Origin: Halalkalicoccus tibetensis
GTDB lineage: Archaea > Halobacteriota > Halobacteria > Halobacteriales > Halalkalicoccaceae
Direction: 5' to 3'
DNA: 64,000 nucleotides
Assembly (NCBI RefSeq): GCF_037996645.1
Contig: NZ_JBBMXV010000001.1
Coordinates: forward strand, 852,268 to 916,267
A model generated the notes under the pieces. It worked only from the letters and a program-made list of their open reading frames with translations. It did no database searches and was not told the origin of the DNA. Below are positions 2 through 14,432 of this stretch, in pieces (position 1 is the stretch's first letter; each line of letters starts with the position of its first letter). The position numbers and the translations under genes are program-made.

Positions 2-493
2 CAGGCAGAAGATACAGGCATCGAGAGTACGGAACAGGTCTCCGACAACATCAACGTCCTGAGCGAAGTCGGGACCGTTGGCGCCAGCGGTGATGACATC
101 AGCGATGTCAATCTAATGGTCCAGAAATCGCCCGGTGCGGGTGATATCGACCTTGAGGCACTGAGTGTGCAGTTCTTAGGACCGGACGGTGCTGAGGACT
201 TCGAATTCAGTGAGGATGGCACTGATGGATATAGCCTCGCAGAGGTCCAGATTAGCGAGGAGCTGGCAGAGGATGAAGACCCTTCCAACGTCCTGATCGA
301 GCGCAGTGACCGGTATCAGATCCAGCTGGATCTCGATGGGCTGAGCGGTGCAGATGTCGATATCGGAACTCTCGCAGAGGGTGAAAACGCGGAAGTGACG
401 ATCACGACCGCATCGGGCTCCCAGCAGACGGTGACCCTCCAGGCTCCTGACTCGCTCGCTAGCTCCGGTGACGGCGAGTCCGTCCGCCTCTAA
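2..493 (+). CDS. Archaellin (flagellin), 5'-truncated by window edge
   Basis: This is the C-terminal part of an archaellin, the filament subunit of the archaellum. The frame is open from base 2, so the gene starts before the window. The visible protein begins with a stretch resembling the conserved archaellin segment after the N-terminal helix (Q-A-E-D-T-G-x-E-S-T, then Q-V-S-D, about residues 1-15). It then runs into the Asp/Glu-rich, beta-rich exposed domain and ends in T-I-T-T-A-S-G-S-Q-Q-T-V-T-L-Q-A-P, the usual C-terminal beta strand. The ATG at base 116 is internal, because matching archaellin sequence lies upstream of it. The gene precedes arlF and arlG on the same strand, as expected for an archaellum cluster. 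Family assignment is firm. Which paralogue it is cannot be told. Confidence 0.88.
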   Translation, partial: QAEDTGIESTEQVSDNINVLSEVGTVGASGDDISDVNLMVQKSPGAGDIDLEALSVQFLGPDGAEDFEFSEDGTDGYSLAEVQISEELAEDEDPSNVLIERSDRYQIQLDLDGLSGADVDIGTLAEGENAEVTITTASGSQQTVTLQAPDSLASSGDGESVRL

Positions 494-580
494 GAACCGC
501 CCGCTAACCACCTTCGGAACTGACCGGTAGGCGTTGCGACGCGACGTCGGATTTCAGTACATCAAACGGAAACACATCAA

Positions 581-1033
581 ATGGGCTTCAGCGTAAGCGG
601 ATCCACGGTGATCATCCTCATCGGCTGTCTCATAGCCTTCAGCGCGGCCTTCACGGTCACGGTGGACAGCTTCGACAGGGTGACGACCGCACAGGACGAG
701 CACGCTGATCGCCTCCTCGATCGACAGAACACGGAAATCGAGATCGGTGACGTACAGCGGGACGACGCGACCCTGACCGTCCACGTCACGAACACCGGTT
801 CGACCGCGCTCTCGATCGATCGCACGGACCTGCTGATCGACGGCGGGTACACCCACGCGGAGCACACCATAACCAATGGCGACACCACCACCGACGACAC
901 GGACCTCTGGCTGCCCGGCGACACCCTCGCGTTCGAGGCCGAATCGGGCGGGGACAGCGTGAAGGTCGTCACCCAGCACGGGGTCGCCGCGACGGCCGAC
1001 GTTCCCGACGCCGACACCACGGAGGCCACGTAG
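581..1033 (+). CDS. arlF: Archaellum stator protein ArlF (FlaF)
   Basis: This 150-residue protein has one N-terminal hydrophobic helix (about residues 8-28), then an acidic beta-rich domain with the L-T-V-H-V-T-N-T-G-S-T-A-L segment typical of ArlF/ArlG. Family knowledge: ArlF and ArlG form the extracellular stator that anchors the rotating archaellum to the S-layer. A weak TATA-like TTTCAGTA lies about 27 bases upstream of the ATG, so the gene may have its own leaderless transcript. arlG starts on the base after its stop codon, so the two are co-transcribed. The Asp/Thr-rich tail shows no further domain. It could be confused with ArlG, but gene order supports ArlF first. Confidence 0.82.
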   Translation: MGFSVSGSTVIILIGCLIAFSAAFTVTVDSFDRVTTAQDEHADRLLDRQNTEIEIGDVQRDDATLTVHVTNTGSTALSIDRTDLLIDGGYTHAEHTITNGDTTTDDTDLWLPGDTLAFEAESGGDSVKVVTQHGVAATADVPDADTTEAT

Positions 1034-1498
1034 ATGGGGTCGGTCTCGATCTCGCATCTGATCATCTTCATCGCGAGCCTGCTGGTCGCCGCGAGCGTCG
1101 CCGGCACGCTGATCGTCAGCGTCGAGGACGTCAGCAGCTCCGTCGACCAGCAGAGCGACTCGCTCACCCAGCAGATCGACACCGACATCGCGATCATCAG
1201 CGACCCATCGAGCCCCGCGGTCTACCAGGAGCCCGAGGAGGACGAGAACGGATCGCTCACCCTGCTCGTGAAGAACACCGGCGAGACGACCATCCCCACC
1301 GACGGCTCGAACCTCGACGTGCTGGTCGACGGGCAGTACCGGACCGGGATCGACATCGAGGTCGTCTCCGGTGGCGACCGCTGGTCGTCGGGTGCCGTCG
1401 CGGAGGTGACCGTCGATCTCGACGACGGACTCACGGACGACCACCGCGCGACGGTGATCGTCAACGGGAGCCAGGCGACGTTCAACTTCCGCGTCTGA
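1034..1498 (+). CDS. arlG: Archaellum stator protein ArlG (FlaG)
   Basis: This 154-residue protein has an N-terminal membrane helix (about residues 5-27, I-S-H-L-I-I-F-I-A-S-L-L-V-A-A-S-V-A) followed by an exposed beta domain with S-L-T-L-L-V-K-N-T-G-E-T-T-I-P, the hallmark strand of the FlaG family. It pairs with ArlF to build the stator of the archaellum motor. The ATG abuts the arlF stop codon. In many haloarchaea arlG is followed by arlH, arlI and arlJ (the regulator, ATPase and platform). Here it is followed by an acidic protein and cheY, so the motor genes must be elsewhere in the genome or absent. Confidence 0.85.
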   Translation: MGSVSISHLIIFIASLLVAASVAGTLIVSVEDVSSSVDQQSDSLTQQIDTDIAIISDPSSPAVYQEPEEDENGSLTLLVKNTGETTIPTDGSNLDVLVDGQYRTGIDIEVVSGGDRWSSGAVAEVTVDLDDGLTDDHRATVIVNGSQATFNFRV

Positions 1499-1503
1499 CC
1501 GGC

Positions 1504-1513
1504 AGATATTTAC
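1504..1513 (+). promoter_or_regulatory. TATA box for the 1536 gene
   Basis: The sequence AGATATTTAC lies 23-32 bases before the ATG at 1536, the spacing expected for a leaderless haloarchaeal transcript. It sits in the short gap after arlG and suggests that the next gene is not only read through from arlFG. Confidence 0.5.
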
Positions 1514-1535
1514 GGTTAGTTGACATCTATCGAGT

Positions 1536-2003
1536 ATGACCGACGAGCGACCGACCGACTCGGAGGAGGGAGTGCTCTCGCCGTCGGACCTCGACATCGC
1601 GGACGACGACCGGATCGCCGAGATCGAGGACGGCCGATACGTCGTCGCGACCGGCGACGGCCCACCCGACCCCTCCGGCCGGCGCGAGCCCGAGCCCGCC
1701 CCGACCGAATCCGGGGACGCCCGATACGGTATCGACCTCGAGGTCAGCGTCGACGGGGACGACTCGCGGTACCGCACCCGGTCGAACGACATCGTCGACC
1801 TCTTCTCCGAGCTGGTCCGCTGGTACGCCACGCAGATCGACGACGACCTCGACCCCGAGCGGGTGCTCGGGATCCTCGTCGCCGAATCGGAGCTCCCGAT
1901 CGGCCCGCGCCCGACCGTCGAGACGGCGATGGAACGCCACGACCTCACGACCGAGGACTCGATCGGGGAGCTCCTCGACGCGCTCTCGGAGACTCAGCGC
2001 TGA
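1536..2003 (+). CDS. Acidic haloarchaeal protein between arlG and cheY (possibly DUF7500-like)
   Basis: This 155-residue, strongly acidic soluble protein has no membrane segment. Residues 1-65 are low-complexity and rich in Asp, Glu and Pro. Residues 75-150 look folded, with alternating hydrophobic positions (D-I-V-D-L-F-S-E-L-V-R-W-Y-A and G-E-L-L-D-A-L-S). From memory it resembles a haloarchaeal family found beside archaellum and chemotaxis genes (DUF7500), but that name is a recollection and was not searched. It lies between the stator genes and cheY and has its own TATA box. A role linking chemotactic signalling to the archaellum is inference from position only. No catalytic motif is visible. 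Confidence 0.7.
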   Translation: MTDERPTDSEEGVLSPSDLDIADDDRIAEIEDGRYVVATGDGPPDPSGRREPEPAPTESGDARYGIDLEVSVDGDDSRYRTRSNDIVDLFSELVRWYATQIDDDLDPERVLGILVAESELPIGPRPTVETAMERHDLTTEDSIGELLDALSETQR

Positions 2004-2018
2004 TAATCGGTCAGTTCA

Positions 2019-2028
2019 ATTTATATAT
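2019..2028 (+). promoter_or_regulatory. TATA box for cheY
   Basis: AATTTATATA lies 27-36 bases upstream of the cheY ATG at 2055, as expected for a leaderless or near-leaderless transcript. A decoy ATG at 2042 is followed at once by a stop codon, which supports 2055 as the start. Confidence 0.65.
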
Positions 2029-2054
2029 CTATTCAAACATTATGCTGTAGAACA

Positions 2055-2417
2055 ATGCCACCTAGCGTTCTGATCGTCGACGATTCGGAGTTCATGCGGA
2101 GCCTGCTGCGGGAGATCCTGGCCGACGACTACGAGATCGTCGCCGAGGGAGAGAACGGCGTCGAGGCCCTCGAACTGTATCGCGAGCACGAGCCCGATCT
2201 GGTGATGATGGACATCGTCATGCCGATCCGGGACGGGATCGAGGCGACCACCGCCATCACCGACTCGGATCCCGACGCACGGGTCATCATGTGTACCAGC
2301 GTCGGCCAGGAGGAGAAGATGAAGATGGCGGTCAAAGCCGGCGCGAACGGCTACATCACCAAGCCCTTCCAGAAACCGAGCGTCCTCGAGGCCATCGAGG
2401 ACGTCGTGCCCGCATAG
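2055..2417 (+). CDS. cheY: Chemotaxis response regulator CheY
   Basis: This 120-residue single receiver domain has all key residues: acidic pocket Asp9-Asp10, phosphorylated Asp53 in M-M-D-I-V-M-P, Thr81/Ser82, and Lys103 in the T-K-P motif. Family role: phosphorylated by CheA, it binds adaptor proteins (CheF) at the archaellum motor to control switching. The length is normal for a stand-alone CheY. The stop codon at 2415-2417 is followed directly by an ATG at 2418 that opens a cheC-like reading frame, which would originally have been the next gene of the operon. The gene looks fully functional. Confidence 0.95.
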   Translation: MPPSVLIVDDSEFMRSLLREILADDYEIVAEGENGVEALELYREHEPDLVMMDIVMPIRDGIEATTAITDSDPDARVIMCTSVGQEEKMKMAVKAGANGYITKPFQKPSVLEAIEDVVPA

Positions 2418-2815
2418 ATGCGCGTCGATATCGACTCCCTCGACTTGGTTCGCCGGCTCGCCCACGACGGCGCTGAACAGGCCGCCGCGTCCCTCTCGGA
2501 GATGACCGGCGCCGAGACCCGGGTCGGCCCCGAACCGTCGCTGATCGTCCGGAGGACGTCGCGTATCCCGTTCCACACCGTCGGGTTCCGGAAGAACCCG
2601 GTGACGTTGATCGAAAGCGAGTCGAGCAGCGCCGCGCGTTCGTCGTCGTCCGACCGGAGGAGCTCGCCGTAGCCGTCGTACTCGTCGATCCCCACGCGAC
2701 GCATCCGCGCGTCGATCCGGCGACCGAGGTAGGCGTCGTTGTAGTACGACGAGGTGAACTCGAGGTCCTCCTCGAGCAGGACGAGCAGCCGATCGAACGC
2801 GGTGGTTTCGCTCAT
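2351..2815 (-). pseudogene. cheR: cheR 5' fragment: methyltransferase lacking its SAM-binding domain
   Basis: The first ~94 residues are typical CheR: the N-terminal helical domain (E-D-L-E-F, then Y-Y-N-D-A-Y-L-G-R-R-I-D-A-R-M-R-R), then S-I-N-V-T-G-F-F-R-N-P, the entry to the catalytic domain. CheR normally continues for another ~170 residues with the SAM-binding fold. Here, from about base 2526-2540, the frame instead reads antisense through the cheC remnant and the end of cheY, giving an unrelated 60-residue tail. The start overlaps the cheA stop codon by four bases, so the operon cheB-cheA-cheR is preserved at its head. Such a protein cannot methylate receptors. CheB upstream is intact. 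Confidence 0.75.
2418..2672 (+). pseudogene. cheC: cheC 5' fragment, truncated at a deletion junction
   Basis: Residues 1-36 of this frame (starting M-R-V-D-I-D-S-L-D, with A-H-D-G-A-E-Q-A-A-A-S-L-S-E-M-T-G) match the start of haloarchaeal CheC, the CheY phosphatase/adaptor. A full CheC is about 200 residues. After about base 2526-2540 the resemblance ends and the frame runs antisense through the start of cheR, giving a meaningless Ser/Arg-rich tail to residue 84. The start codon abuts the cheY stop codon, as in an intact operon. I read this as the remnant of cheC after a deletion that joined it head-on to cheR. The signature acidic and Asn catalytic residues of CheC are absent. A local assembly error is the alternative. 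Confidence 0.7.
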
Positions 2816-4716
2816 GATGGAAGGGTCCGCACGTCGAGGATCGGGACGATCTTGCCGTCGCCCAGCACTGCCGTCCCGCCGAGCCCGGCGGTGCCGCTCA
2901 GGACGCCCTCGAGCGGCTTGACGACGACCTCCTCCTGTCGACGGACGTCGTCACAGCGCAGCGCGATCGACCGCTCGGTGTTCCTGATCCGGACGAGCAT
3001 CCGCCCGTCGCCGTCGGCCCCCTCGACGTCGAGGACGTCGCCCAGATCGACGACCGGGTAGAGCTCGTCGTCGTGGTCCACGACGGGCTGACCGTTCAGC
3101 GTCCGGACCGGGTCGGTGCGGCCGATCTCGTCGACCGCCTTGATCGGAACGCCGAAACTCTCGGCGCCGACGCGGACGAACAGCACGTTGACGATCGCGA
3201 CCGACACCGGGAGCCTGAGCCGCACGAGGGTGCCCGCGCCGGGTTCGCTCTCGACGTCGATCCGACCGTCGAGGCGTTCGACGGTGCTGTGGACGACGTC
3301 CATGCCGACGCCCCGACCGCTGACGTCGGTGACCTCCTCGGCCGTCGAGAAGCCCGGATGGAAGATCAGCTCGTAGACCTCGCTCGCTTCGAGCGTCGCG
3401 AGCTCGCGTTCCGTGTGGATCCCGGTCTCGACCGCCTTGGCCTCGATCGCCTCGCGGTCCAACCCCCGGCCGTCGTCCTCGAGCTCGATGACGACGTTGT
3501 CGCGGTCGCGCGTCGCCCGGAGCTCGATCGTCCCCGTCTCGGGCTTGCCCGCCTCCGAGCGTTCCCCGGGCGGTTCGATGCCGTGATCGATCGAGTTCCG
3601 GAGGATATGCATCAACGGATCCGAGAGCTCGGAGAGGATCGTCCGGTCGAGCTCGACGTCCTCGCCGTCCATCGAGAAGTCGATCCGTTTGTCCTCCTCG
3701 CGCGCGAGATCGCGAACCAGCCGCGGGAGGTTGCTCACCACCTTCTCGAGGGGGATGAGCCGGACGTCCATGACGACGTTCTGGAGGTTCGTGGTGATCT
3801 TGTCGAGCTCGTCGATCGCGTCACCGGCACCCGTGGTCTCCCCCTCCTCGACCGCACGCCGGAGCTTGATCCGGCTGGTCACCAGCTGCTCGACCATGCC
3901 GTGGAGCTCGTCGAGCCGGTCGACGTCGACCCGAACCGACCGGATCTCCGGCTCCGACTTCCCGGGCGTCCCGTCGTTCGCCTCCGGTTCCGATTCCGTC
4001 GTTTCGACCGCCTCGACGGTCGCGCTCGCGACCCGTTCGATCCCCTCGAGGACCGCCAGGACCTCCTCCTCCGTCCGGGCGACGACCGAAACCGAGAACG
4101 GCCCGTCGACCTCGTCGATCCCCGGCTCGAAGGCGACGGGCTCGAACGCCTCGGCGATCGCCTCGGCCGCGAGCATCGCCTCGACGCCCGCCATCTCGCC
4201 CTCCCGGGGTTCGACCGCCGCACGGTAGACCGTCTCGTCCTCGCCGCAATCGTCCGACAGGGGATCGACGGCGGGCGGCTCGTCCGGGGCCGACCCGGAT
4301 TCGACGGCTCGGTCGCCGCCCGTGGCCCCGCCGTTCTCGATCGCCGCGCGCAGTGCCTCGACGGTCGGGTCGACGTCGACGGTCGCTCCCTCACCGCCCT
4401 CGCCGTCCTCGATCGCCCGGACGCTCGCTTCGATGCCGTCGACCCCGTCGAACGCGAGGTCCATCACGTCGGGGCTCGCCTCGAGGCGCCCGCCCCTGAG
4501 CTCGTCGAGCAGGTCCTCGAGCGCGTGGGCGAGGCGGCTCTCCGCCTCGAACCCCATCGCCCCGAAGTTCCCCTTCAGCGTGTGGGCGGTCCGGAAGATC
4601 TCGTCCATCGCCTCGCCGTCGTCGGGGTTGGCCTCGAAGGTCAACAGCGCGTTGTTCAGGTCCGTGATACGTTCGTCTGCCTCCCTGAGGAAGGCGTCTG
4701 TGTGGTCGTCTGTCAT
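2812..4716 (-). CDS. cheA: Chemotaxis histidine kinase CheA
   Basis: This 634-residue protein has the full CheA plan: P1 Hpt domain with the phosphorylated His45 in F-R-T-A-H-T-L-K-G-N, an acidic linker, a P2-like region (about 165-245), a P3 dimerisation helix pair (about 265-330, ending M-D-V-R-L-I-P-L), a P4 ATP-binding domain with N-box H-I-L-R-N-S-I-D-H-G-I-E and glycine boxes D-D-G-R-G-L and G-R-G-V-G-M-D, and a CheW-like P5 domain (about 500-634). It passes phosphate to CheY and CheB in response to transducers. The start overlaps the cheB stop codon (ATGA) and the end overlaps the cheR remnant, so all three form one leftward operon. Confidence 0.96.
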   Translation of the reverse strand: MTDDHTDAFLREADERITDLNNALLTFEANPDDGEAMDEIFRTAHTLKGNFGAMGFEAESRLAHALEDLLDELRGGRLEASPDVMDLAFDGVDGIEASVRAIEDGEGGEGATVDVDPTVEALRAAIENGGATGGDRAVESGSAPDEPPAVDPLSDDCGEDETVYRAAVEPREGEMAGVEAMLAAEAIAEAFEPVAFEPGIDEVDGPFSVSVVARTEEEVLAVLEGIERVASATVEAVETTESEPEANDGTPGKSEPEIRSVRVDVDRLDELHGMVEQLVTSRIKLRRAVEEGETTGAGDAIDELDKITTNLQNVVMDVRLIPLEKVVSNLPRLVRDLAREEDKRIDFSMDGEDVELDRTILSELSDPLMHILRNSIDHGIEPPGERSEAGKPETGTIELRATRDRDNVVIELEDDGRGLDREAIEAKAVETGIHTERELATLEASEVYELIFHPGFSTAEEVTDVSGRGVGMDVVHSTVERLDGRIDVESEPGAGTLVRLRLPVSVAIVNVLFVRVGAESFGVPIKAVDEIGRTDPVRTLNGQPVVDHDDELYPVVDLGDVLDVEGADGDGRMLVRIRNTERSIALRCDDVRRQEEVVVKPLEGVLSGTAGLGGTAVLGDGKIVPILDVRTLPS

Positions 4717-5771
4717 GGTATGTCCTCGCTGATCGTCCCGACGATCGCTTCGCTGAGCCCGTCGATCCCCGAGACGACGTCGACCGCGCCCGCCTCGGCC
4801 GCACGGCGGGGCATGCCGAACACCGCCGAGCTCTCCTCGTCCTGTGCGACGGTCCGTCCGCCCGCCTCCTTGATGCGCTGGAGGCCGGCCGTCCCATCGC
4901 GACCCATGCCCGTGAGGACGACCCCCGTGAGCGGGCTCGAGACGGTCGCCGCCGCGGTCCGCATCGTGACGTCGATCGCCGGGCGGACGTTGTGTTCCGG
5001 CGGGTCCCCGGTGAGCGCGACGCGCAGCCGTCCGCCCGCCTCGTTTCGGACCGTCAGGTGTCGCCCGCCCTTCGCGACGAGGACCTCGCCGCCGCCGATC
5101 CGTGCGCCATCGGTCGCTTCGCGCACCGCGTAGTCGGTACAGCCGTCGAGGCGTTCCGCGAAGCGGGCGGTGAAGGCGTCGGGCATGTGCTGGACGACCA
5201 GCACCCGCGCGTCGGCCGCGATCGGCAGCTCCGAGAGCACCCGCTCGACCACGCCCGGCCCGCCGGTCGAGGCCCCGATGATGACCGTCGGGTTCTCGAG
5301 ATACCGGGCCGGTTCGACCGCCGGATCGGCGGTCGGAGCGTCGGCATCGACCGAGAGGTCCGCGTTCGCGACCGATCGCACCGCCCGCCGGAGCTGGGTC
5401 TCGACGGCGGGCATCCCCGCGGTCACCTCGCCGCCGGGCTTGGTGAAGAAGTCGACCGCCCCCCGATCGAGCGCCTCGAAGGTCACGTCCGCGCGCTCGC
5501 CCGCGTGGGCGCTCAACATCAGGATCGGCGTCGGCGTCGTCGCCATGATCCGCTCGACGGCCTCGAGCCCGCTGACGCCGGGCATCTCGATGTCCATCGT
5601 CACGACGTCGGGTCGGTGTTCCGAGACCGCTTCGACGGCGGCCGCGCCGTCGTCGGCCTCCGCGACGACCTCGATGCCGTCCTCTCGGAGGATGTCACCG
5701 ATGACCGTCCGCATGAACGAGGAGTCGTCGACGACCACCGCGCGTGTCGGGGTCGCTGTGGAGGCACTCAT
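4713..5771 (-). CDS. cheB: Protein-glutamate methylesterase/deamidase CheB
   Basis: This 352-residue protein has a receiver domain (Asp pair in V-V-V-D-D-S-S-F-M-R, phosphorylated Asp60 in T-M-D-I-E-M-P-G) and a C-terminal methylesterase with the catalytic Ser in G-A-S-T-G-G-P, His in V-V-Q-H-M-P, and Asp in G-M-G-R-D-G-T. It removes methyl groups from (and deamidates) transducers. I chose the ATG at 5771 because the protein there begins M-S-A-S-T just before the receiver fold and a TATA box lies about 30-40 bases upstream; the open frame extends further but through non-coding AT-rich DNA. The partner methyltransferase gene next to it is broken, so CheB may act without local CheR. Confidence 0.95.
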   Translation of the reverse strand: MSASTATPTRAVVVDDSSFMRTVIGDILREDGIEVVAEADDGAAAVEAVSEHRPDVVTMDIEMPGVSGLEAVERIMATTPTPILMLSAHAGERADVTFEALDRGAVDFFTKPGGEVTAGMPAVETQLRRAVRSVANADLSVDADAPTADPAVEPARYLENPTVIIGASTGGPGVVERVLSELPIAADARVLVVQHMPDAFTARFAERLDGCTDYAVREATDGARIGGGEVLVAKGGRHLTVRNEAGGRLRVALTGDPPEHNVRPAIDVTMRTAAATVSSPLTGVVLTGMGRDGTAGLQRIKEAGGRTVAQDEESSAVFGMPRRAAEAGAVDVVSGIDGLSEAIVGTISEDIP

Positions 5772-5799
5772 ATTCGCAGTTACACCATGTACGAATAGG

Positions 5800-5812
5800 T
5801 GATATATAATAT
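5800..5812 (-). promoter_or_regulatory. TATA box for cheB-cheA operon
   Basis: Reading leftward, ATATTATATATC lies 29-41 bases before the cheB ATG. It sits in a 150-base AT-rich divergent region shared with cheW, so both sides of the chemotaxis cluster may be controlled from here. Confidence 0.55.
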
Positions 5813-5888
5813 ATTCTGATAAAAGATCAGGTCTGATAAGCGCCGACCCGCTAAACCGGGTGATTACCGTTCCTGATAATAACATAGC

Positions 5889-5900
5889 TATTTTTACATA
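5889..5900 (+). promoter_or_regulatory. TATA box for cheW
   Basis: TATTTTTACATA lies 22-33 bases before the ATG at 5922. This spacing favours that ATG (leaderless) over the upstream in-frame GTG at 5904. The GGGAGG just before the ATG is too close to act as a normal ribosome binding site. Confidence 0.55.
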
Positions 5901-5921
5901 TAGGTGGGCCGAACGGGAGGT

Positions 5922-6338
5922 ATGAACGACGAGGAAACCCAGATGCTCGAGTTCGACCTCGGGGCCGAGACCTACTGCGTCGATATCGGCTACGTGGCCG
6001 AGATCGTCGACACGGACGAACTGACGCGGATCCCCAACTCCCCGCCCCACGTCAAGGGCGTGATGGATCTCCGCGGGCGGACGACGTCGATCATCGACCC
6101 CAAGAGCGTCTTCGGGATCGATTCGACCGGGGACGAGAAACGGATCATCGTCTTCGACCCCGAGGAGACCGACACCCAGGGCGCGATCGGCTGGATCGTC
6201 GACGAAGTCGACCAGGTCGTGCCGGTCGACCCGGAGTCGGTCGACGACTCACCGCTGGACGACGAGGCGATCGAGGGGATCGTCAAGCGCGAGGACGCCT
6301 TCGTGATCTGGGTCTCGCCGCGATCAGTCGCGGCCTGA
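5922..6338 (+). CDS. cheW: Chemotaxis coupling protein CheW
   Basis: This 138-residue CheW is a twin SH3-like beta barrel that links transducers to CheA. Family-typical segments are visible: M-L-E-F-D-L-G-A-E-T-Y-C-V-D-I, I-P-N-S-P-P-H-V-K-G-V-M-D-L-R-G, and I-G-W-I-V-D-E-V-D-Q-V. The start at 5922 gives M-N-D-E-E-T and fits a TATA box at about 5890-5900. The gene is divergent from cheB-cheA. Its end abuts the stop of the convergent hypothetical gene at 6339. Length and key glycines look normal, so it should be functional. Confidence 0.94.
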   Translation: MNDEETQMLEFDLGAETYCVDIGYVAEIVDTDELTRIPNSPPHVKGVMDLRGRTTSIIDPKSVFGIDSTGDEKRIIVFDPEETDTQGAIGWIVDEVDQVVPVDPESVDDSPLDDEAIEGIVKREDAFVIWVSPRSVAA

Positions 6339-6740
6339 TCAGAGCGCCTCGTAGAGCTCCCGGAACGACTCCGGGTCGAGCGACGCCGGGACCGACACCG
6401 ACGGTCGATCGGCCTCCGGGACCGAACGCGAGATCGCGTCGAACCGGCCGTCGATCGCGCGCTCGAGGCGGCGCCCGTCGGCCGCGCGCTCGACCCGCCG
6501 GGCGGTCGCCTCGACATCGCCGTCCATCGGGATCGCCCGGTAGGACCAACCGCGATCCGCCCGATCGGCGGCGATCGTTCCCCGGTCGACGGTGGCGGGA
6601 TCGAACAGCACCACGTCGACGGACCCGTCGACGGCGTCCGGGTTCCATTCGGCCGCGTGGCGTCGCTCCACGTCGAGTGCGGCGGCGTACCGTTCGGAAC
6701 GCGCGCTCGCGGCCGCGACGATCCGAACCGTCGGGGTCAT
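6339..6740 (-). CDS. Uncharacterised soluble protein beside cheW
   Basis: This 133-residue protein shows no recognised domain, signal peptide or membrane helix. The sequence alternates strands and helices: V-R-I-V-A-A-A-S, V-D-V-V-L-F-D-P-A-T, then an Arg/Ala-rich helical part, ending F-R-E-L-Y-E-A-L. The first half resembles a small Rossmann-like or receiver-like fold (a strand ending in V-L-F-D-P at the position of a receiver Asp), but the other receiver residues are missing, so this is only a shape impression. It is convergent with cheW with no gap. A link to chemotaxis is inferred from position only. Confidence 0.55.
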   Translation of the reverse strand: MTPTVRIVAAASARSERYAAALDVERRHAAEWNPDAVDGSVDVVLFDPATVDRGTIAADRADRGWSYRAIPMDGDVEATARRVERAADGRRLERAIDGRFDAISRSVPEADRPSVSVPASLDPESFRELYEAL

Positions 6741-6868
6741 GACGACCCGCTCCCTACTCGTACCGTTCTTCTGCCGTCCGCCCGGCGCCGTTCGCTGAAC
6801 TGGTCGATATCAAACACGTTGTTTGAACTATACTATCGGATGATATAAAATACTATTGATAGGACCCC

Positions 6869-7591
6869 TCAGAGAACGTCCTCGTCGCCCATCAGCGAGA
6901 AGCCGCTCGCGCGATCGTGGACGTCGATCCCGCCGGAGCCGATCTCCATCGGGAAGATGTCGGTCTCGATCGGACGCTTTCGCATCTTCGCCACCCAGAC
7001 GTAGCGGTTGACTCCCGAGTCGGTCGGCGTCTGGATCAGATAGACGTTGCCGTCGGTGAGGAAGTTCTCGAGGCCGACCTCCGCGTCGGGGAACCGGGAG
7101 CCCTGCTCGCTGATGAAGAGGCTCGTCAGCCCGTTTCGCTTCAGGATGTCGGAGAACTTCAGCAGGTACGTCCGCTGTTCGCGCTCGGTGTCGAAGAACA
7201 ACGAGAGCATCGTCAGCGAGTCGACGACCAGCCTGTCGTGGTCGGTCCGTCCGAGCTCCGCGAGCAGTTCGTCGAGCGTCGACGAGAAGTCCTCCTCGCG
7301 TAGGAGGAGTTCCTTGCCGTAGACCGTGATGTCGCCGCTCTCGACGAGGTCGCCCCAGTCGTCGAACCCGATCGACTCGGCGGCCTCCCGGATGTCGCTC
7401 GCGTCCTCCTCGAAGGTGAGATACACCCCCGTCTCGTCGAACTCCGTCACTCCCCTGTAGAGATACTCGATCCCGAGGATCGTCTTCCCCGTCCCCGGGT
7501 TGCCGCTGATCAACACGGTCGATTCGGACACCAGCCCACCGTTGAGGATCGAATCGAGCCCCTCGATCCCCGTCTCCGTCAACTCTACCAT
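6869..7591 (-). CDS. KaiC-like RecA-superfamily ATPase
   Basis: This 240-residue single-domain KaiC-family ATPase has Walker A at residues 30-37 (G-N-P-G-T-G-K-T), the paired glutamates Glu61-Glu62 that serve as catalytic residues in KaiC, and a Walker B strand ending in Asp124 (L-V-V-D-S). It starts G-I-E-G-L-D-S-I-L-N-G-G-L, the canonical KaiC/RadA opening. It is distinct from ArlH: the P-loop and the length of the C-terminal half are more like generic archaeal KaiC homologues. It faces a related but degenerate P-loop protein across a divergent promoter, and both lie next to the che genes. Its substrate or partner is unknown. Confidence 0.85.
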   Translation of the reverse strand: MVELTETGIEGLDSILNGGLVSESTVLISGNPGTGKTILGIEYLYRGVTEFDETGVYLTFEEDASDIREAAESIGFDDWGDLVESGDITVYGKELLLREEDFSSTLDELLAELGRTDHDRLVVDSLTMLSLFFDTEREQRTYLLKFSDILKRNGLTSLFISEQGSRFPDAEVGLENFLTDGNVYLIQTPTDSGVNRYVWVAKMRKRPIETDIFPMEIGSGGIDVHDRASGFSLMGDEDVL

Positions 7592-7704
7592 GTCGGCTGA
7601 TATTGCTTCATTGTATTAGTCGTATTCGTTGAATGACTATCAGATAATGGAATTTTTCTGTAATTCTATAAAAGATATATGGCAGTGGTGGCTCTCCTTC
7701 CGAT

Positions 7705-8319
7705 ATGTGCTATCAGGTGGACGTCGGGGGGATGACCGACTCCGTCTCCGGGGGGACCGCGATCCTCGTCTCCGGCCCGCCGATGACCGGCAAGTACGAC
7801 CTGTTCGTCGAGCTGCTCGCGGCGGGCCCCGCCATCGCGATCGCCACGGACACCGACGCGGCGACGCTTCGCGAGGACTACGCGGGGTTCGCCCCCTCCG
7901 AGCGACTCTCGGTGGTCGACTGTGCCAGTCACACCCAGGGGGTCGAGACGACCGACGACGACGACACCAGATACGTCCCCGGCGCGGGGAACCTGACCCG
8001 TATCGGCACGGCCTTCACCGACTTCGTCGAGGAGCGCGTCGATGCCGGGGTCCGCGTCGGCCTCCACTCGCTGTCGCCGCTGCTGGTCTACTCCGAGCTG
8101 CGATCGGTCTATCGGTTCCTGCAGGTGTTCACCGGCCAGGTCCGGGGGGCGGACTGGCTCTGTCTCGCGACGTTCGACCCGACGATGCACGACGAACAGG
8201 TCGTGAGCACGGTCCTCGATCCGTTCGACGGCGTCGTCGAGACCCGCGAACACGAGGGGCGCCGCGAGGCACGGATCAAGGGAATCGACCCCCAGCCGAG
8301 CGACTGGACCGCCTTCTGA
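7705..8319 (+). CDS. P-loop-like haloarchaeal regulator with degenerate Walker A (DUF7504-like)
   Basis: This 204-residue protein has a KaiC-like layout with a decayed nucleotide site. The Walker A region reads G-P-P-M-T-G-K-Y, with Tyr where Ser/Thr should bind magnesium. A strand near residues 110-125 (V-G-L-H-S-L-S-P-L-L-V-Y) matches the Walker B position but has no Asp. It resembles haloarchaeal 'HTR-like' or DUF7504 proteins (from memory). A TATA box C-T-A-T-A-A-A-A-G at about 7666-7674 supports a start at 7705 or the in-frame ATG at 7732. It is divergent from the intact KaiC-like ATPase, so the two may interact. That is inference. Confidence 0.72.
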   Translation: MCYQVDVGGMTDSVSGGTAILVSGPPMTGKYDLFVELLAAGPAIAIATDTDAATLREDYAGFAPSERLSVVDCASHTQGVETTDDDDTRYVPGAGNLTRIGTAFTDFVEERVDAGVRVGLHSLSPLLVYSELRSVYRFLQVFTGQVRGADWLCLATFDPTMHDEQVVSTVLDPFDGVVETREHEGRREARIKGIDPQPSDWTAF

Positions 8320-8322
8320 GGC

Positions 8323-9207
8323 TCACGTCCCCAGTCGCTGTGCGCGTGCGGTGACGACGATCCCCGCGAGGACGACGGCTCCGCCGAGGACGGTCGCGCC
8401 ACCGGGGACCTCCGCGAGCAGGAGGAGCGCGAGCAGCGTCGCCCCGACGGGCTCGCCGAGCAGCGAGACGCTGACGACGCTCGAGTCGACGTGGGCGAGC
8501 GCCCAGTTCACTACAGTGTGACCGAACACGCCGGGGCCGATCGCCATCCCGAGGAAGAGCACCCACTCGCGGGCCGGATAGCCCGTGAGAGGGTCTCCGC
8601 CCGCGAGCGCGACGAGGAGCAGGGTACAGGTGCAGGCGCCGTACACGACGCTCACGTACGGCAACAGGGCGACCCGTTGGCGCAGCGATCGGCCCGCGAG
8701 CACGTAGCAGGCGGCCATGACGCCACCCAGCAGGGCCAGCGCGTTGCCGTAGAGGGCCGTTCCCGCGAAGGCCGTCCCGGCCAGGAGGTCGCTCACCGAC
8801 ATGACGGCCGCGCCCGCCATCGCGAGGACGATCCCGCCGACCGTGCGGACGGTGACCCGCTCGTCGAGCAGGAGATAGGCGCCGACGGCGACGAAGACGG
8901 GCTGGGTCTGGACCAGCGTGACGCTCGCGGCGACGCTCGTCCAGTTCAGGCTCTCGAACCACGCGGCGAAGTGGATCGCGAGTGCCACCCCCGTCACGGT
9001 CGCGACCGCGCCGTCGCGGGTCGAGAGCGAGCGGAACTCCGCCCGGTGGCGAACGAGCGCGAGCGGCGAGAGCAGGAGAAGGGTAAAGAGGACGCGATAG
9101 AACGCGACGACGACGCTCGGCGCCCCGCTCCAGCGCACGAGGATCGCGCTCGTGCTGAGCGCGAGGATCGACAGCGCGAGCGCGACCGGCGGCGAGATCC
9201 GAGCCAC
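8323..9207 (-). CDS. EamA/DMT-family transporter
   Basis: This 294-residue protein has about ten hydrophobic helices in two five-helix halves, the drug/metabolite transporter (EamA) layout. Typical marks are P-P-V-A-L-A-L-S-I-L-A-L-S-T-S-A-I-L-V-R-W near the start and P-V-F-V-A-V-G-A-Y-L-L-L-D-E-R-V, the repeated D/E-R-V motif at the end of helix 4. The second half repeats this with L-G-E-P-V-G-A. Members export amino acids or other small metabolites; the substrate cannot be read from sequence. It is convergent with the preceding gene (three bases between stop codons). A TATA-like CTTATAT lies about 21-27 bases upstream. Confidence 0.88.
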   Translation of the reverse strand: MARISPPVALALSILALSTSAILVRWSGAPSVVVAFYRVLFTLLLLSPLALVRHRAEFRSLSTRDGAVATVTGVALAIHFAAWFESLNWTSVAASVTLVQTQPVFVAVGAYLLLDERVTVRTVGGIVLAMAGAAVMSVSDLLAGTAFAGTALYGNALALLGGVMAACYVLAGRSLRQRVALLPYVSVVYGACTCTLLLVALAGGDPLTGYPAREWVLFLGMAIGPGVFGHTVVNWALAHVDSSVVSVSLLGEPVGATLLALLLLAEVPGGATVLGGAVVLAGIVVTARAQRLGT

Positions 9208-9362
9208 GGAGGACGGTCGCCCGGCGGGCGCTTATATCGTCCGTTGTGTGATCGGCAGGACTCAAACACCCTGTCCCGAAAGCCAGCTATTTCATTTATT
9301 ATATACTGTGGCGAGCGCTACAGTGGGGGAACTGATTAGATCCTCCCGCGCGACCCGCAACC

Positions 9363-9773
9363 GTGAACGGCCCCGCCCGCGTCCGCGATCACCTCCTCTC
9401 GAACCATTCCGAGACGCTCGATGCGACCATCGACTGTGCCGACGCCGTCGCCCAGTCGCGTTCCGGCCCGGCGACTGGGCGTGAGGAGGTCGTCTCCCCG
9501 CTGAAAGCGATCCTCGATCACGCGGGTGTTCTCGAAACCTATCCCGCCCTGCTCGCGAGTGCCGTCGACGCCCTCGGCGAGTCGCTTTCCGCAGCGCCGG
9601 TCGCCGCCCCGCCGTACGTGACGATCACCGGAACCGGGCCGGTACTGCGGGCATCGCTTCCCTCCGGACGGATCGTGATTCGACTGGCCGTCTTTGCCCT
9701 CGAACGCGACCCGAAGCGCTACGTCAGAACCGGGAACTCTCCCGAAGAGATCCTCGTCGTCGAACGGCGCTAA
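9363..9773 (+). CDS. Uncharacterised haloarchaeal protein (GTG start)
   Basis: This 136-residue soluble protein has no membrane segment. The N-terminal half is helical (V-R-D-H-L-L-S-N-H-S-E-T-L-D-A-T-I-D-C-A-D-A-V). The second half has beta strands (P-P-Y-V-T-I-T-G-T-G-P-V-L-R-A, G-R-I-V-I-R-L-A-V-F-A-L-E). It has the feel of a conserved haloarchaeal family of unknown function but no motif I can name. GTG at 9363 is the only start that keeps the conserved-looking N-terminus, and an ATTAGA box lies about 27 bases upstream. Its end overlaps the convergent SRPBCC gene by four bases. Confidence 0.65.
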   Translation: MNGPARVRDHLLSNHSETLDATIDCADAVAQSRSGPATGREEVVSPLKAILDHAGVLETYPALLASAVDALGESLSAAPVAAPPYVTITGTGPVLRASLPSGRIVIRLAVFALERDPKRYVRTGNSPEEILVVERR

Positions 9774-10243
9774 CCCTCCAAAAGCTCCTTCGTTTTCCGG
9801 TGGCGATACCGGAACATCGGCTCGAAGCCGACGACCGCGAACGGGGAGGTGGCTCGCGCGGGGTCGGGCAGCTCGTAGTGGAGCGTGTCCCGGATCCTCG
9901 TGCCCTCGCCCTCGCGGCGGAACTGGTGGACGTGGACCCACCGGGCGAACGGGCCGCCGCGCATCTCGTCCTTGAACAGCCCGCGCTCGTCGCTGCTCGT
10001 CCGTTCGGTGATCACCGAAGTCCACGAGTTACCGGGGAGGTCGAGCGGTCCCAGCCGCATGTCGATCTCCGAGCCGGCCTCGAGGAGTTCGGGATCGGGC
10101 TCGCCGTCCGGGCCCCTGACCGCCAGGATCGAAAGCCCCATCCAGCCCGGGGTGAGTGCCTCGAGCCCGTCGATTCGCGAGTGAAACTCCCAGACGTCCT
10201 CGAGCGAGGCGTCCACGTACGTCTCCCGTTCGTAAGTCGCCAT
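9770..10243 (-). CDS. SRPBCC-family lipid/ligand-binding protein
   Basis: This 157-residue protein has the START-like helix-grip fold pattern: an opening strand and helix (Y-E-R-E-T-Y-V-D-A-S-L-E-D-V-W-E-F-H-S), a central G-S-E-I-D-M-R-L, the strand F-A-R-W-V-H-V-H-Q-F, and a C-terminal helix M-F-R-Y-R-H-R-K-T-K-E-L-L. Haloarchaeal relatives are annotated as polyketide cyclase/dehydrase-like or coenzyme-Q-binding-like proteins. The ligand is unknown. The spacing to lrpA1 (28 bases) suggests the two may share a transcript. Length is normal for the family. Confidence 0.85.
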   Translation of the reverse strand: MATYERETYVDASLEDVWEFHSRIDGLEALTPGWMGLSILAVRGPDGEPDPELLEAGSEIDMRLGPLDLPGNSWTSVITERTSSDERGLFKDEMRGGPFARWVHVHQFRREGEGTRIRDTLHYELPDPARATSPFAVVGFEPMFRYRHRKTKELLEG

Positions 10244-10271
10244 GCCGGTCGTTGGGGCCGAACCCGTAAAA

Positions 10272-10700
10272 CTACTTCAGGCGCTCCTGGAGGAAGGAGG
10301 GGTGGGCGGCCGTCACGCCGTCGACCGAGAGGATCTCATCACTGATGATCTCGCCGACCTCGTTGCCGTCGGTCGCGCGGATCTCGGCCATCAGCATGTG
10401 ATCGCCCGACGAGGAGTACAGCGCCTCGACCTCGTCGATTTCGCCGAGCGCGCGCGTCGCCTCGACGTAGCGCTCGCTCTCGACGTCGATCCCGACCATC
10501 GCGATCGAGCGCCCCGAGAGCTTCTTGGGGTCGACGTCGGCGGAGTAGCCGACGATGACGCCGTCCCCCTCCAGCTGGTCGATGTACTTCCGGACCGTGG
10601 GCTTCGAGACCCCCGCCCGGCGCGCGATCTCCGCGTACGACGCCTGGGCGTCCTCCTCGAGGACCGATAGGATCCGGTCCGCTGTCGAATTCGTCGCCAC
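10272..10700 (-). CDS. lrpA1: Lrp/AsnC-type transcriptional regulator (LrpA1-like)
   Basis: This 142-residue protein has an N-terminal winged HTH (R-I-L-S-V-L-E-E-D-A, recognition part A-G-V-S-K-P-T-V-R-K-Y-I-D-Q-L-E) and a C-terminal RAM/AsnC ligand domain (V-G-I-D-V-E-S-E, then S-S-G-D-H-M-L-M-A-E-I). Family members sense amino acids as octamers. The symbol is chosen because the length and sequence recall Halobacterium LrpA1 and that gene also lies next to porAB, as here (porB is 760 bases downstream of its start, separated by an inserted AT-rich patch). A regulatory effect on porAB is inference. Confidence 0.82.
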   Translation of the reverse strand: MATNSTADRILSVLEEDAQASYAEIARRAGVSKPTVRKYIDQLEGDGVIVGYSADVDPKKLSGRSIAMVGIDVESERYVEATRALGEIDEVEALYSSSGDHMLMAEIRATDGNEVGEIISDEILSVDGVTAAHPSFLQERLK

Positions 10701-10951
10701 ACACCCACTTTTGCGTCGGTGAAAAAATACCTTGCGAACCGGAAAGCCTGGATCTCTCCGGGAAAATGTCTGATGAGGCGAAAGAGTACTGGGGTTAAGT
10801 TGGACCCAGGATCGGAAGTGGACGATGTTATTTTAGAAGAAAGTATCGACAGTAGTCACGTGTATAGTGCTGAAAATCCGCCGGTATCTATCAAACCACT
10901 ATCCGAAGAGCGGAAAAGAGATAAGAAAAGAGATCATGAGCGGACAGGAAA
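10701..10951. other. AT-richer stretch, no convincing gene
   Basis: An 82-codon frame (10719-10967, +) exists here, but its product is lysine-rich and basic, unlike haloarchaeal proteins, and it overlaps the end of the lipoprotein gene. I see no motif. The base composition is lower in G+C than the flanks, suggesting inserted or non-coding DNA. Confidence 0.4.
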
Positions 10952-11407
10952 CTATACGCTGAACTGATCGATCCGTTCTGGCACACCGTTGTGCGGGTAA
11001 TGAGTCACCCTGAGGAGCGTTGGTTTCCGCTCGAACGCGATCTCGCTTTTATAGTGTGTCTCCACCCTGCAATCGTTCTCCGTCTCCTCCGTTGTGAAGG
11101 TTTGTATCTCGGCGATAGCAATTCCTTCGGCGTTCTCATTCAGCGACGTGTATATCAAGAGACTCAGCGCGTCGTTCATACTCCCTGTTTCGATCATCCC
11201 TCTCAGCACGACTGTCTCACCCTCAACGACTATCTCGACGGACTGTTGTCGGTCGGACGAGCAGGCTCTACTGGTCGCTTCGATCGTACTGGATTCGACC
11301 TCCACGGATCGGTCGTTGTTCTCTCCTAAGCATCCCGATACGAACACGGCTGCGACACCAGCCGACGTCAGAAACGACCGTCTTGAAATAACACGGTCTC
11401 CTATCAC
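10952..11407 (-). CDS. Tat-exported lipoprotein of unknown function
   Basis: This 151-residue protein has a twin-arginine signal (I-S-R-R-S-F-L-T-S-A-G-V-A-A) and a lipobox V-S-G-C, putting the lipidated Cys at residue 26, so it should be anchored outside the membrane. The mature part holds a short beta-rich domain with V-E-I-V-V-E-G-E-T-V-V-L-R-G-M-I-E-T-G and three further cysteines or so. No family recognised. Codon use and G+C are lower than neighbours, and it sits between lrpA1 and porB, which are adjacent in related genomes from memory. A recent insertion is therefore likely. No partner gene is visible. Confidence 0.75.
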   Translation of the reverse strand: MIGDRVISRRSFLTSAGVAAVFVSGCLGENNDRSVEVESSTIEATSRACSSDRQQSVEIVVEGETVVLRGMIETGSMNDALSLLIYTSLNENAEGIAIAEIQTFTTEETENDCRVETHYKSEIAFERKPTLLRVTHYPHNGVPERIDQFSV

Positions 11408-11447
11408 CTGTAAATATCCAGAACGAAGAGAAATAAGTACTATGGGG

Positions 11448-11457
11448 CTAAAAAAGC
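11448..11457 (-). terminator. T-tract terminator after porB
   Basis: On the minus strand a run of six T (bases 11455-11450) lies 10-15 bases after the porB stop codon, a typical archaeal termination signal for the porA-porB transcript. Confidence 0.5.
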
Positions 11458-11464
11458 GTGCCCG

Positions 11465-12400
11465 CTACCTGTGCCGGTCGAGCAGGTCGTAGCTACGCTC
11501 CCACTCGTAGTCGTCGTCGAAGTACCGCTCGGCGAGCGGTTCCTCCGGCATCTCGCCGATCTCCTGTTTCTCCTGCTGGTAGGAGGGGCGGTCCTCGTCG
11601 ACGTAGAACCGGCCCGTCAGCACCGTCCCCTCCTTGAGGACGTTCTCGGCCTCGTACATCATGTCCTGGGCCTCGTCGCGCTCGTTGACGTCGAAGTCGT
11701 AGTCGTCGGACTCCTGAACGTCGACGTACGGGACGTACTGCTTCGCGTCCTTGTTCCAGGTCGGACACTGGGTGAGGAAGTCGATGTGCGCGAAGCCGTC
11801 GTGCTCCATCGCCTCCTTCAGGATCTCCTTGGCCTGGTTGGGGTTCACGGCGGCGGTCCGGGCGACGTAGCTCGCACCCGACGTGAGCGACAGTGACAGC
11901 GGGCGGATGGGATCCTTCGCCGAGCCGGAGGGCTGGGTCTTGGACTTGTGGCCCTTCGGGCTGGTGGGCGAGGTCTGGCCCTTCGTCAGGCCGAAGATCT
12001 CGTTGTTGAACACGATGTAGGTCATGTCGTGGTTCTCCCGGGCGGTGTGCATGAAGTGGTTCCCGCCGATCCCGTAGCCGTCGCCGTCGCCGCCGGCGGC
12101 GATCACTTCGAGGCCGGGGTTCGCGAGCTTCGCGGCCCGCGCCACCGGCAGCGAGCGCCCGTGGATCGTGTGAAAGCCGTAGGAGTCGAGGTAGCTGTTG
12201 AGCTTGCCCGAACAGCCGATCCCCGTACAGAGCAGCGTCTCCTCGGGGGTCCGGCCCACTTCGGGCAGGGCTTGTTTCAGCGCCTTGAGCACGCCGAAGT
12301 CACCACAGCCAGGACACCACGTCGGCTGGGGCTCGATGCCGGGCGTGAACTCCTCGCGGTCGATATCTCGTTCCTCTCCGATTGCGTTGAATGCACTCAT
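11465..12400 (-). CDS. porB: Pyruvate:ferredoxin oxidoreductase beta subunit
   Basis: This 311-residue protein binds thiamine diphosphate. It shows Q-P-T-W-C-P-G-C-G-D-F-G-V and C-T-G-I-G-C-S-G-K (cluster-proximal cysteines of the beta subunit), the G-D-G-D-G-Y-G-I-G-G-N-H TPP/Mg motif, and N-N-E-I-F-G-L-T-K-G-Q. Family role: with PorA it oxidatively decarboxylates pyruvate to acetyl-CoA using ferredoxin, replacing pyruvate dehydrogenase in haloarchaea. The length matches halobacterial PorB (about 312), longer than KorB (about 285), hence pyruvate rather than 2-oxoglutarate. The ATG lies four bases after the porA stop codon, so the two are one operon. Confidence 0.9.
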   Translation of the reverse strand: MSAFNAIGEERDIDREEFTPGIEPQPTWCPGCGDFGVLKALKQALPEVGRTPEETLLCTGIGCSGKLNSYLDSYGFHTIHGRSLPVARAAKLANPGLEVIAAGGDGDGYGIGGNHFMHTARENHDMTYIVFNNEIFGLTKGQTSPTSPKGHKSKTQPSGSAKDPIRPLSLSLTSGASYVARTAAVNPNQAKEILKEAMEHDGFAHIDFLTQCPTWNKDAKQYVPYVDVQESDDYDFDVNERDEAQDMMYEAENVLKEGTVLTGRFYVDEDRPSYQQEKQEIGEMPEEPLAERYFDDDYEWERSYDLLDRHR

Positions 12401-12404
12401 TGTT

Positions 12405-14309
12405 TTAGTCGCTTACCGCTGGTTCGAGTCTGGTGTTCGCGCTCGGTGCCTCGGTCCCACCCGCTATTTGGATCTCGAACCCTTCAACGATTTCGGCGGG
12501 TTCGAACGGGTTGCCGTCGTATTTCAGCAGGCTGGTCAGCTTCTCGCCGAACTGGCCGAGCTCGCGCTGGGTGAGCCCGCGGAACTGGGCCGTGGCGTTC
12601 ATCTCGACGACCAGCGCCTCGTCGACGCTCTCGAGGAACTCGGTGACCTCCTTCTCGGCGAACGGCATCAGGTCGCTGACGCCGATCGCCTTCACCGAGT
12701 GACCCTCGTCGTTGAGCCGCTCGACGGCCTCCTTGACCGCGCCCTGGCTCGATCCCCAGGTGACGATGCCGTAGTCGGCCTCGTCGGGCCCGAAGTAGGT
12801 CTGATGGGACGTCTCGGGGTCGTGGTCGAGGCGCTCCCGGATGGACTCGAGCTTCTTCATCCGCAGGTCCATCTGCGTGACGCGGTTGTCGGGGTCCTCC
12901 TCGATGTGGCCCGACTCGTTGTGCTCGTTGCCGGTCACGAGGAAGCGCCCCCCCTTCTGGCCGGGCAGCGAGCGCGGCCGGACGCCGTCGTCGTTGGGGT
13001 CGTCGTGGCTGAAGCGCTGGAACTTGCCCGTCGGGTCGTGCGGGGCGTCCTCGAGTTCGGCCTCGGTGAGCGTCGGACCCAGCGACGGGTTGGGCTCCTG
13101 ATCGAAGGCGCTCTCGGGGACGTTCTGGTTCTCGCCCGAGAGCTTCTGATCGATGACGACGATGGCCGGGATCTGGTAGTCGTAGGCCATCTCGAACGCC
13201 GCCCGGGTCTGCTCGTAGGCCTCCTGGGGCGTTCCGGGCGCGAAGACGACGCGGTTGGAGTCGCCCTGGCTCGTATAGAGGACGTGTTCGAGGTCGCCCT
13301 GTTCGGGCTTGGTGGGAAGCCCCGTCGAGGGGCCCGCACGCATCGCCTCGACCAGCACGATCGGCGTCTCGCTCATCTCCGCGAGGCCGAGCGGTTCGCT
13401 CATCAGGGCGAACCCGCCGCCCGAGGAGCCGGACATCGCCTTGACGCCGGCGTGGCTCGCGCCGAGCGCCAGCGCCGCGGCGGCGATCTCGTCCTCGACC
13501 TGCTCGGAGATCCCCCCGAACTTCGGCAGGTGCTGGGACATGATCGTGAAGACGTCGGTCCAAGGGGTCATCGGGTAGCCCGCGATGAACCGACAGCCCT
13601 CGTCGAGCGCGCCGTAGGCGACGCCGTTCGACCCGGAAACGAGCACCTGCTCCTCGTCGTGCTCGCCCGTCGGGACCCGGAGGTCGTGCTCGAACTCGTA
13701 GTCCTCGACCATCATGTCGTAGGCCTCATGCAGGATGGTGAGGTTGGGCTCGAGGATCTTCTCCGGCATCGCGCTCTCCATCAGGTTCTCGATCTCGTCG
13801 AGATCCATCTCGAGCAGCGCCGCGGTGGCGCCGACGCCGGCCGTGTTGCGCATGACCTCGCGGCCGTGTTCGCGGGCCATGCTCCGGAGGTCGAGGTCGA
13901 AGACGTGCCAGTCGTTCTCCTCGGCGCGCTCCTCGAAGTCGGGGACGTCCTCGACGTCGATCAGCCCCGAATCGTAGATGATGATGCCACCCTCGCGGAG
14001 GTCGTCGAGGTTCTCGCTGAGGGGTTTGACCTCCTCCTCGCCGTAGTAGGCGTGGTCCTGTGGGTTGCGAGCGAACGAGTCGCCGAGCGCCAGCAGGAAG
14101 TTATAGCCGTCCCCCCGCGAGCTGACCGGCTCGTCGCTCGCGCGGATCTCGACGTAGGTGTGCCCGCCCCGGATCCGCGATGGGTAGTGTCGGTGCGTGA
14201 ATACGTTGAGCCCCGATCGCATCAGGGCCTTCGCGAAGTTCTGGCTCGTCGAATCGATCCCGTCCCCGGAACCACCAGCGATTCGCCAGATGAGTTCGTT
14301 ATCAGCCAT
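12405..14309 (-). CDS. porA: Pyruvate:ferredoxin oxidoreductase alpha subunit
   Basis: This 634-residue protein is a fusion of the gamma and alpha parts of 2-oxoacid:ferredoxin oxidoreductases. The N-terminus W-R-I-A-G-G-S-G-D-G-I-D-S-T-S-Q and R-G-G-H-T-Y-V are the gamma domain. Around residue 230 V-S-G-S-N-G-V-A-Y-G-A-L opens the pyrimidine-binding alpha domain with Y-P-M-T-P-W-T. The last third carries transketolase-C-like sequence (Y-G-I-V-T-W-G-S-S-Q-G). I chose the ATG at 14309; the longer frame runs into promoter DNA and a basic, unconserved N-terminus. A GCTTTAC box about 40 bases upstream may be its TATA element. Confidence 0.9.
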   Translation of the reverse strand: MADNELIWRIAGGSGDGIDSTSQNFAKALMRSGLNVFTHRHYPSRIRGGHTYVEIRASDEPVSSRGDGYNFLLALGDSFARNPQDHAYYGEEEVKPLSENLDDLREGGIIIYDSGLIDVEDVPDFEERAEENDWHVFDLDLRSMAREHGREVMRNTAGVGATAALLEMDLDEIENLMESAMPEKILEPNLTILHEAYDMMVEDYEFEHDLRVPTGEHDEEQVLVSGSNGVAYGALDEGCRFIAGYPMTPWTDVFTIMSQHLPKFGGISEQVEDEIAAAALALGASHAGVKAMSGSSGGGFALMSEPLGLAEMSETPIVLVEAMRAGPSTGLPTKPEQGDLEHVLYTSQGDSNRVVFAPGTPQEAYEQTRAAFEMAYDYQIPAIVVIDQKLSGENQNVPESAFDQEPNPSLGPTLTEAELEDAPHDPTGKFQRFSHDDPNDDGVRPRSLPGQKGGRFLVTGNEHNESGHIEEDPDNRVTQMDLRMKKLESIRERLDHDPETSHQTYFGPDEADYGIVTWGSSQGAVKEAVERLNDEGHSVKAIGVSDLMPFAEKEVTEFLESVDEALVVEMNATAQFRGLTQRELGQFGEKLTSLLKYDGNPFEPAEIVEGFEIQIAGGTEAPSANTRLEPAVSD

Positions 14310-14432
14310 ATGTGAAGTCCCGGCCCGTGTGGGCCATTGACGCCACTTCGCCGTGAGTGAAGTAAAGCCTTTGCCATCCATTAGCAAGGATCGATAATGA
14401 AGGATGCGCGACGCCATCGGCCGGTTTCGGGG

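Follow-up and report, generated by a model that had tools for sequence, protein, structure and literature searches.

We propose that a stretch of the archaellum and chemotaxis cluster, running from within cheC to within cheR, has been deleted from this genome, and that the cheC and cheR fragments to the right of cheY mark the scar. We put the probability that this is a real deletion scar at roughly 92%. We favor this reading because the two fragments match their families only up to the junction, because the flanks are collinear with a relative, and because the genes that we searched for are absent. It seems most likely that the whole stretch was removed in a single event, although we are somewhat less sure of this than of the scar itself.

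The window (the whole 64,000-nucleotide stretch that was analysed, G000:C1:852268-916267) comes from a 3.6-Mb genome in 15 contigs, with a completeness of 97.31%. The features around the scar are:

581..1033, + strand: arlF-like (archaellin-family) gene, kept; Pfam Arch_flagellin 1.4e-9; tblastn matches in G001, G003, G004, and G006
1034..1498, + strand: arlG-like gene, kept; Pfam Arch_flagellin 2.5e-26; tblastn matches in congeners
1536..2003, + strand: DUF7500 gene, kept; Pfam DUF7500 8.5e-42
2055..2417, + strand: cheY, open and complete; Response_reg 2.4e-30; 88% identity to CheY of G005
2418..2525, + strand: cheC stub, codons 1-36; 27/36 residues identical to CheC of G005, no match beyond
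2516..2536, no strand: putative deletion junction, where two homologous stretches end; includes the palindrome GACCCGGGTC at 2516-2525
2516..2815, - strand: cheR stub, about codons 1-93 to 1-100; Pfam CheR_N 2.2e-8; matches haloarchaeal CheR
2812..4716, - strand: cheA, open and complete, 634 aa; Hpt, H-kinase_dim, HATPase_c, and CheW domains
4734..5771, - strand: cheB, open and complete, 346 aa; CheB_methylest 4.6e-57; Response_reg 1.7e-25
5922..6338, + strand: cheW, open and complete; CheW 3.9e-26

The names arlF (581..1033) and arlG (1034..1498) follow gene order and are putative. The window genome has eight archaellin-family matches, which include these two genes and pieces that are split at assembly joins. 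Single-N scaffold joins lie inside the archaellin array at G000:C1:852267 and G000:C1:851138 (1 and 1,130 bases left of the window), and the join at G000:C1:852267 has an 84-bp exact duplication of the edge. Because of that join, we view the archaellin that ends at window position 493 as broken by the assembly and not clearly by mutation. As these joins show, the assembly is imperfect close to the window.

The two stubs and their junction

The ATG of cheC at 2418 directly adjoins the stop of cheY at 2417, and the same arrangement is found in G005. Residues 1-36 of the cheC stub are 75% identical (27/36) to CheC from G005, with E = 3e-14 among 18 subject proteins (the reference is 384 aa and contains an internal run of N). 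Residues 37-84 of the same frame have no match among these 18 proteins (best E = 0.24), so the original prediction of about 36 cheC codons holds. It had also claimed that the stub keeps the part of cheC that is most like the family, and this was incorrect. The Pfam CheC signature is absent from the stub, and there is no CheC match in the window genome. In CheC from G005, the Pfam CheC family matches best at residues 276-312, far downstream of the part that the stub retains, which explains why Pfam does not see the stub.

On the other strand, residues 6-56 of the cheR stub match Pfam CheR_N (E = 2.2e-8, 34.1 bits versus a cut-off of 27), so the N-terminal all-alpha domain is present. We compared the stub to 17 haloarchaeal CheR sequences (17 of the 21 loci; L006, L011, L012, and L020 were dropped because the frame-finding motif was not met). 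The best five alignments have 53-61% identity and end at residues 92, 93, 93, 93, and 100, which agrees with the 94 or so cheR codons that were originally predicted. Residues 101-154 of this frame have no match among the 17 CheR sequences (best E = 1.1). Aligning both partial products to their families thus supported their identification as CheC (via G005) and CheR (via the haloarchaea), and also the expectation that each frame reads nonsense past the junction. The catalytic methyltransferase domain of CheR (PF01739) has no match anywhere in the window genome. Both the cheC and cheR remnants are pseudogenes.

We place the junction at about 2516-2536 because the cheC and cheR homologies end there. 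The predicted range of 2526-2540 overlaps with this, but the ends of the stubs put the junction slightly further to the left. Both frames are open up to the junction. The cheR breakpoint was set from the CheR of other families, as an intact cheR was found in none of the 10 genomes of this family.

Provided that the final codons of the cheR stub (TRV) are native, the two stubs would overlap on GACCCGGGTC (2516-2525), and this palindrome is a possible microhomology. The palindrome is absent from cheC in all three of the congeners G005, G006, and G004 (two or three bases differ). This, and the fact that the cheR side was judged from other families, weakens the idea. The joining would have occurred at a short microhomology, with a possible length between 0 and 10 bp. 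We also considered excision between long repeats, which we do not favor: the longest direct repeats (2301-2530 versus 2511-2820) are two of 10 bp, in a test that covers the surviving sequence and not the lost ends.

The missing stretch

G006 aligns to the window in pieces: window positions 120-2526, then 2779-4771 and 6320-8998, with gaps at cheB and cheW. The roughly 250 bp at 2526-2779 of the window correspond to about 8.3 kb in G006 (6724-15019). This region of G006 contains arlD/E, arlH, arlI, and arlJ, with cheF and a HEAT-repeat gene on the opposite strand; cheC, cheD, and cheR, all of them damaged remnants, lie toward the ends of the region. In G005, the gene order is cheY-cheC-cheD-arlD/E-arlH-arlI, with cheW-MCP-cheB-cheA on another contig. 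The G005 assembly has a completeness of 71%, with a contig that ends inside cheA; contig C197 of this genome is apparently JADFQH010000226.1. (A CheA scan of the genome contigs gave two loci, one of which is apparently the G005 contig.)

Five Pfam searches of the window assembly, for cheC, cheD, the CheR catalytic domain, arlD/E, and cheF, gave no match, and all five gave matches in Haloferax volcanii as a positive control. For arlI and arlJ, the best relatives in the window genome are 38% and 24% identical, respectively, and neither gene has an orthologue-level match. (The orthologues in G001, G003, and G006 are at 79-100%.) These distant relatives are presumably pilus genes. So the ArlI, ArlJ, and ArlD/E that an archaellum would require were not found beyond these distant relatives, and of the CheR/CheB adaptation pair, only CheB was found. 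The original prediction held that one deletion had taken the 3' parts of both genes and everything between, perhaps including cheD and arl genes. The comparison to close relatives bears this out, with G006 collinear on both sides and G005 giving the order on the left, as does the genome search, in which seven genes of the stretch have no orthologue-level match.

The clusters of Haloferax volcanii and Halobacterium salinarum contain the same kinds of che and arl genes as the cluster in the window, but the window lacks the part that begins inside cheC and ends inside cheR. In Hfx. volcanii, cheR, cheA, cheB, and cheW are HVO_1222-1225, and cheY and cheC are HVO_1207 and HVO_1206 (excerpts of PMC2841640). 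In the che region of haloarchaea, the HEAT_PBS gene always adjoins a cheF (DUF439) gene (excerpts of PMC2666748).

In our proposal, the left break would be near codon 36 of cheC and the right break near codons 93-100 of cheR. The rest of cheC, cheD, arlD/E, arlH, arlI, arlJ, cheF, the HEAT-repeat gene, and the catalytic part of cheR would have been lost. The size of the deletion was probably about 9.5 kb. This is a composite of distances in two genomes: in G005, 3,523 bases separate cheC codon 37 and arlI, and in G006, another 5,517 bases extend from arlI to where the HEAT gene starts. The remainder of cheR, for a protein with about 270 residues, would add some 520 bases.

Could the full cluster be present in the genome and have been skipped by the assembler? 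There are single-N scaffold joins just to the left of the window, one of them with a duplicated edge, and the completeness of 97.31% leaves some room for this. However, there is no N at the junction or anywhere in the window. Also, seven genes from the stretch lack an orthologue-level match in the assembly, and if the join were false, they would usually turn up on another contig. Finally, G004 carries a similar fusion at other coordinates. For these reasons, we rejected misassembly as the main account and consider it to be very unlikely.

A series of successive deletions, instead of just one, might also have produced the present junction. Separate smaller deletions have occurred in the cluster in G006, and the receptor gene that lies between cheB and cheW in G004 and G005 is absent from the window, so a further event must have occurred, unless the other two genomes gained the gene. 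But there is a single junction between collinear flanks, and both stubs are open up to it, so we view several deletions as unlikely. These rival accounts do not all exclude a deletion scar.

As for the receptor gene itself, the window has just 150 bp between cheB and cheW (5772-5921) at the place where G004 and G005 carry it (MCP). This points to a second loss in the window's lineage, or to a gain in G004 and G005.

Different lesions in the same cluster

In a set of 40 genomes, which comprises the window genome plus 39 relatives, we found CheR in 21 and CheB in 24. All 21 genomes with CheR are among the 24 with CheB, and 16 genomes have neither. The three genomes with CheB only are the window genome, G004 (a fragment that covers 41/174 positions), and G005, which is incomplete. 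The window genome is the only well-assembled one of the 40 with a complete CheB and no CheR. None of the 10 genomes of the family has a match to the CheR catalytic domain, with three of the ten being only 61-71% complete.

G004, which we take to be H. jeotgali B3, resembles the window in that the front of cheC is fused to an antisense che gene, and in that arlD/E, arlI, and arlJ were not found beyond distant relatives. But the breakpoints differ: in G004, cheC (to about residue 266 in G005 numbering) meets antisense cheB (to about residue 202 in the window's numbering). Also, cheA was not found in G004. More broadly, G004 has no match for cheA, the CheR domain, cheD, arlD/E, or cheF, and arlI and arlJ have distant relatives only. 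A KaiC-like gene beside the cluster (G004:C1:1507220-1507934) matches in two overlapping pieces, which suggests that it is frameshifted.

In G006, the locus is collinear with the window and the CheR catalytic domain was not found either. Unlike in the window, the motor genes and cheF are present, and cheC, cheD, cheR, and cheB are broken separately. By eye, G006 has a 47-residue cheR (L027:14915-15058) and a 69-residue cheB (L027:16926-17135), each of which consists of the gene's two ends kept in frame, so these appear to be in-frame internal deletions. Both cheC and cheD are broken. No cheW was matched at the locus, where a short remnant can be seen by eye, and no receptor was found in the genome.

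G001 and G003 have archaellum motor genes (L049:5788-12624 and L050:2708-9444) but no match for cheA, cheB, cheR, cheD, cheF, or receptors, and no match for cheY, cheC, or cheW in the 20 kb that we searched. In G003, arlJ and the arlG-like gene each match in two pieces, in different frames. These genes may be frameshifted, in which case the motor would be broken too. Lastly, G002 has no match for cheA, cheB, cheR, cheD, cheF, receptors, arlD/E, or archaellins. Judging from these comparisons of sequence, the scar in the window is one of several different lesions of the same cluster within the genus.

Literature searches on Halalkalicoccus motility, archaellum, or chemotaxis, and on the loss of haloarchaeal chemotaxis and archaeal che pseudogenes, turned up nothing on this locus among the matches listed. 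Excerpts of PMC3404096 make no mention of chemotaxis, motility, or flagella. We make no claim that loss across the genus is unpublished.

The genes that remain

Without ArlI, ArlJ, and ArlD/E, we expect that the cell would build no archaellum. Swimming has probably been lost, as the core of the motor and the coupling proteins are gone. The loss of the archaellum motor genes is the larger consequence of the deletion.

In Halobacterium salinarum, CheR methylates the receptors, and CheB demethylates and deamidates them (excerpts of PMC3579733). Once CheR was lost, the receptors would be without methyl esters, so CheB would have none to remove and could act at most as a deamidase. CheB and CheA were correctly predicted to be intact, as both are open and complete with the expected domains. 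However, the suggestion that local demethylation of receptors would survive does not follow, since no CheR was found.

The motifs that we take to mark CheY, CheA, and CheB are all present in the window's proteins. Elsewhere in the window genome, there are three open receptor genes; two of them encode PAS domains, and the third encodes a protoglobin domain. Most simply, cheY, cheA, cheB, cheW, these three receptors, and the archaellin-family genes would be stranded remnants.

We counted residues that are unique to each lineage in the proteins that were kept:

CheA (385 columns): window 30, G005 30, G006 60
CheB (193 columns): window 11, G005 11, G004 17
CheW (134 columns): window 7, G005 12, G004 9
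CheY (120 columns): window 4, G005 5, G006 8
DUF7500 (154 columns): window 23, G005 15, G006 20

Against outgroups, CheY from the window has more unique residues than CheY from G004 (6 to 2 and 6 to 1). The window's CheB is on a par with that of G005 (16 to 17 and 20 to 14), and its CheA has fewer unique residues than CheA from G005 (4 to 11 and 6 to 7) or G006 (20 to 32 and 23 to 33). These sequences give no consistent acceleration of the kept genes in the window's lineage. In the cheC stub, the window differs from G005, G006, and G004 at 9, 14, and 13 of the 36 codons, respectively, versus 10, 8, and 9 changed codons among those three genomes. This excess is a hint of relaxation in the window's lineage. 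The evidence on age is mixed, but the deletion is probably not old, because the kept genes are not consistently accelerated and both stub frames are open, though the cheC stub hints at relaxation.

Alternatively, CheA-CheW-CheY-CheB and the three receptors might still drive some output besides the archaellum, for example pili or gene control, where CheB would be a deamidase or regulator. On this reading, with the motor and CheR gone, the receptor-CheA-CheW-CheY array would be kept for non-swimming signalling, and CheB would be a deamidase only. In favor of this, the kept genes have open frames, and their proteins carry the domains and motifs that one would expect and lack consistent acceleration; the receptor genes are open as well, with PAS or protoglobin domains. 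Also, a distant relative of ArlI remains, which is presumably a pilus-type ATPase. However, a deletion that is not very old predicts the same pattern. Within the family, cheA was found in three of the 10 genomes and cheR in none. CheA from G006 has twice as many unique residues as the others, and nothing points to a second role that was kept across the genus. Overall, we consider continued use to be quite unlikely, and we prefer to view the kept genes as stranded.

On its own, the deletion in the window would be routine; beside its congeners, it is instructive as a case of repeated gene loss. The genus may be seen as a natural series: a motor without the che genes that we searched for (G001, and G003 with its possible frameshifts in arlJ and arlG); steering without a motor (the window genome and, in part, G004); nearly emptied steering with a motor (G006); and, in G002, neither of the two. 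One could use this series to ask whether chemotaxis or swimming is dismantled first, and what role the stranded CheA, CheB, and receptors may have.
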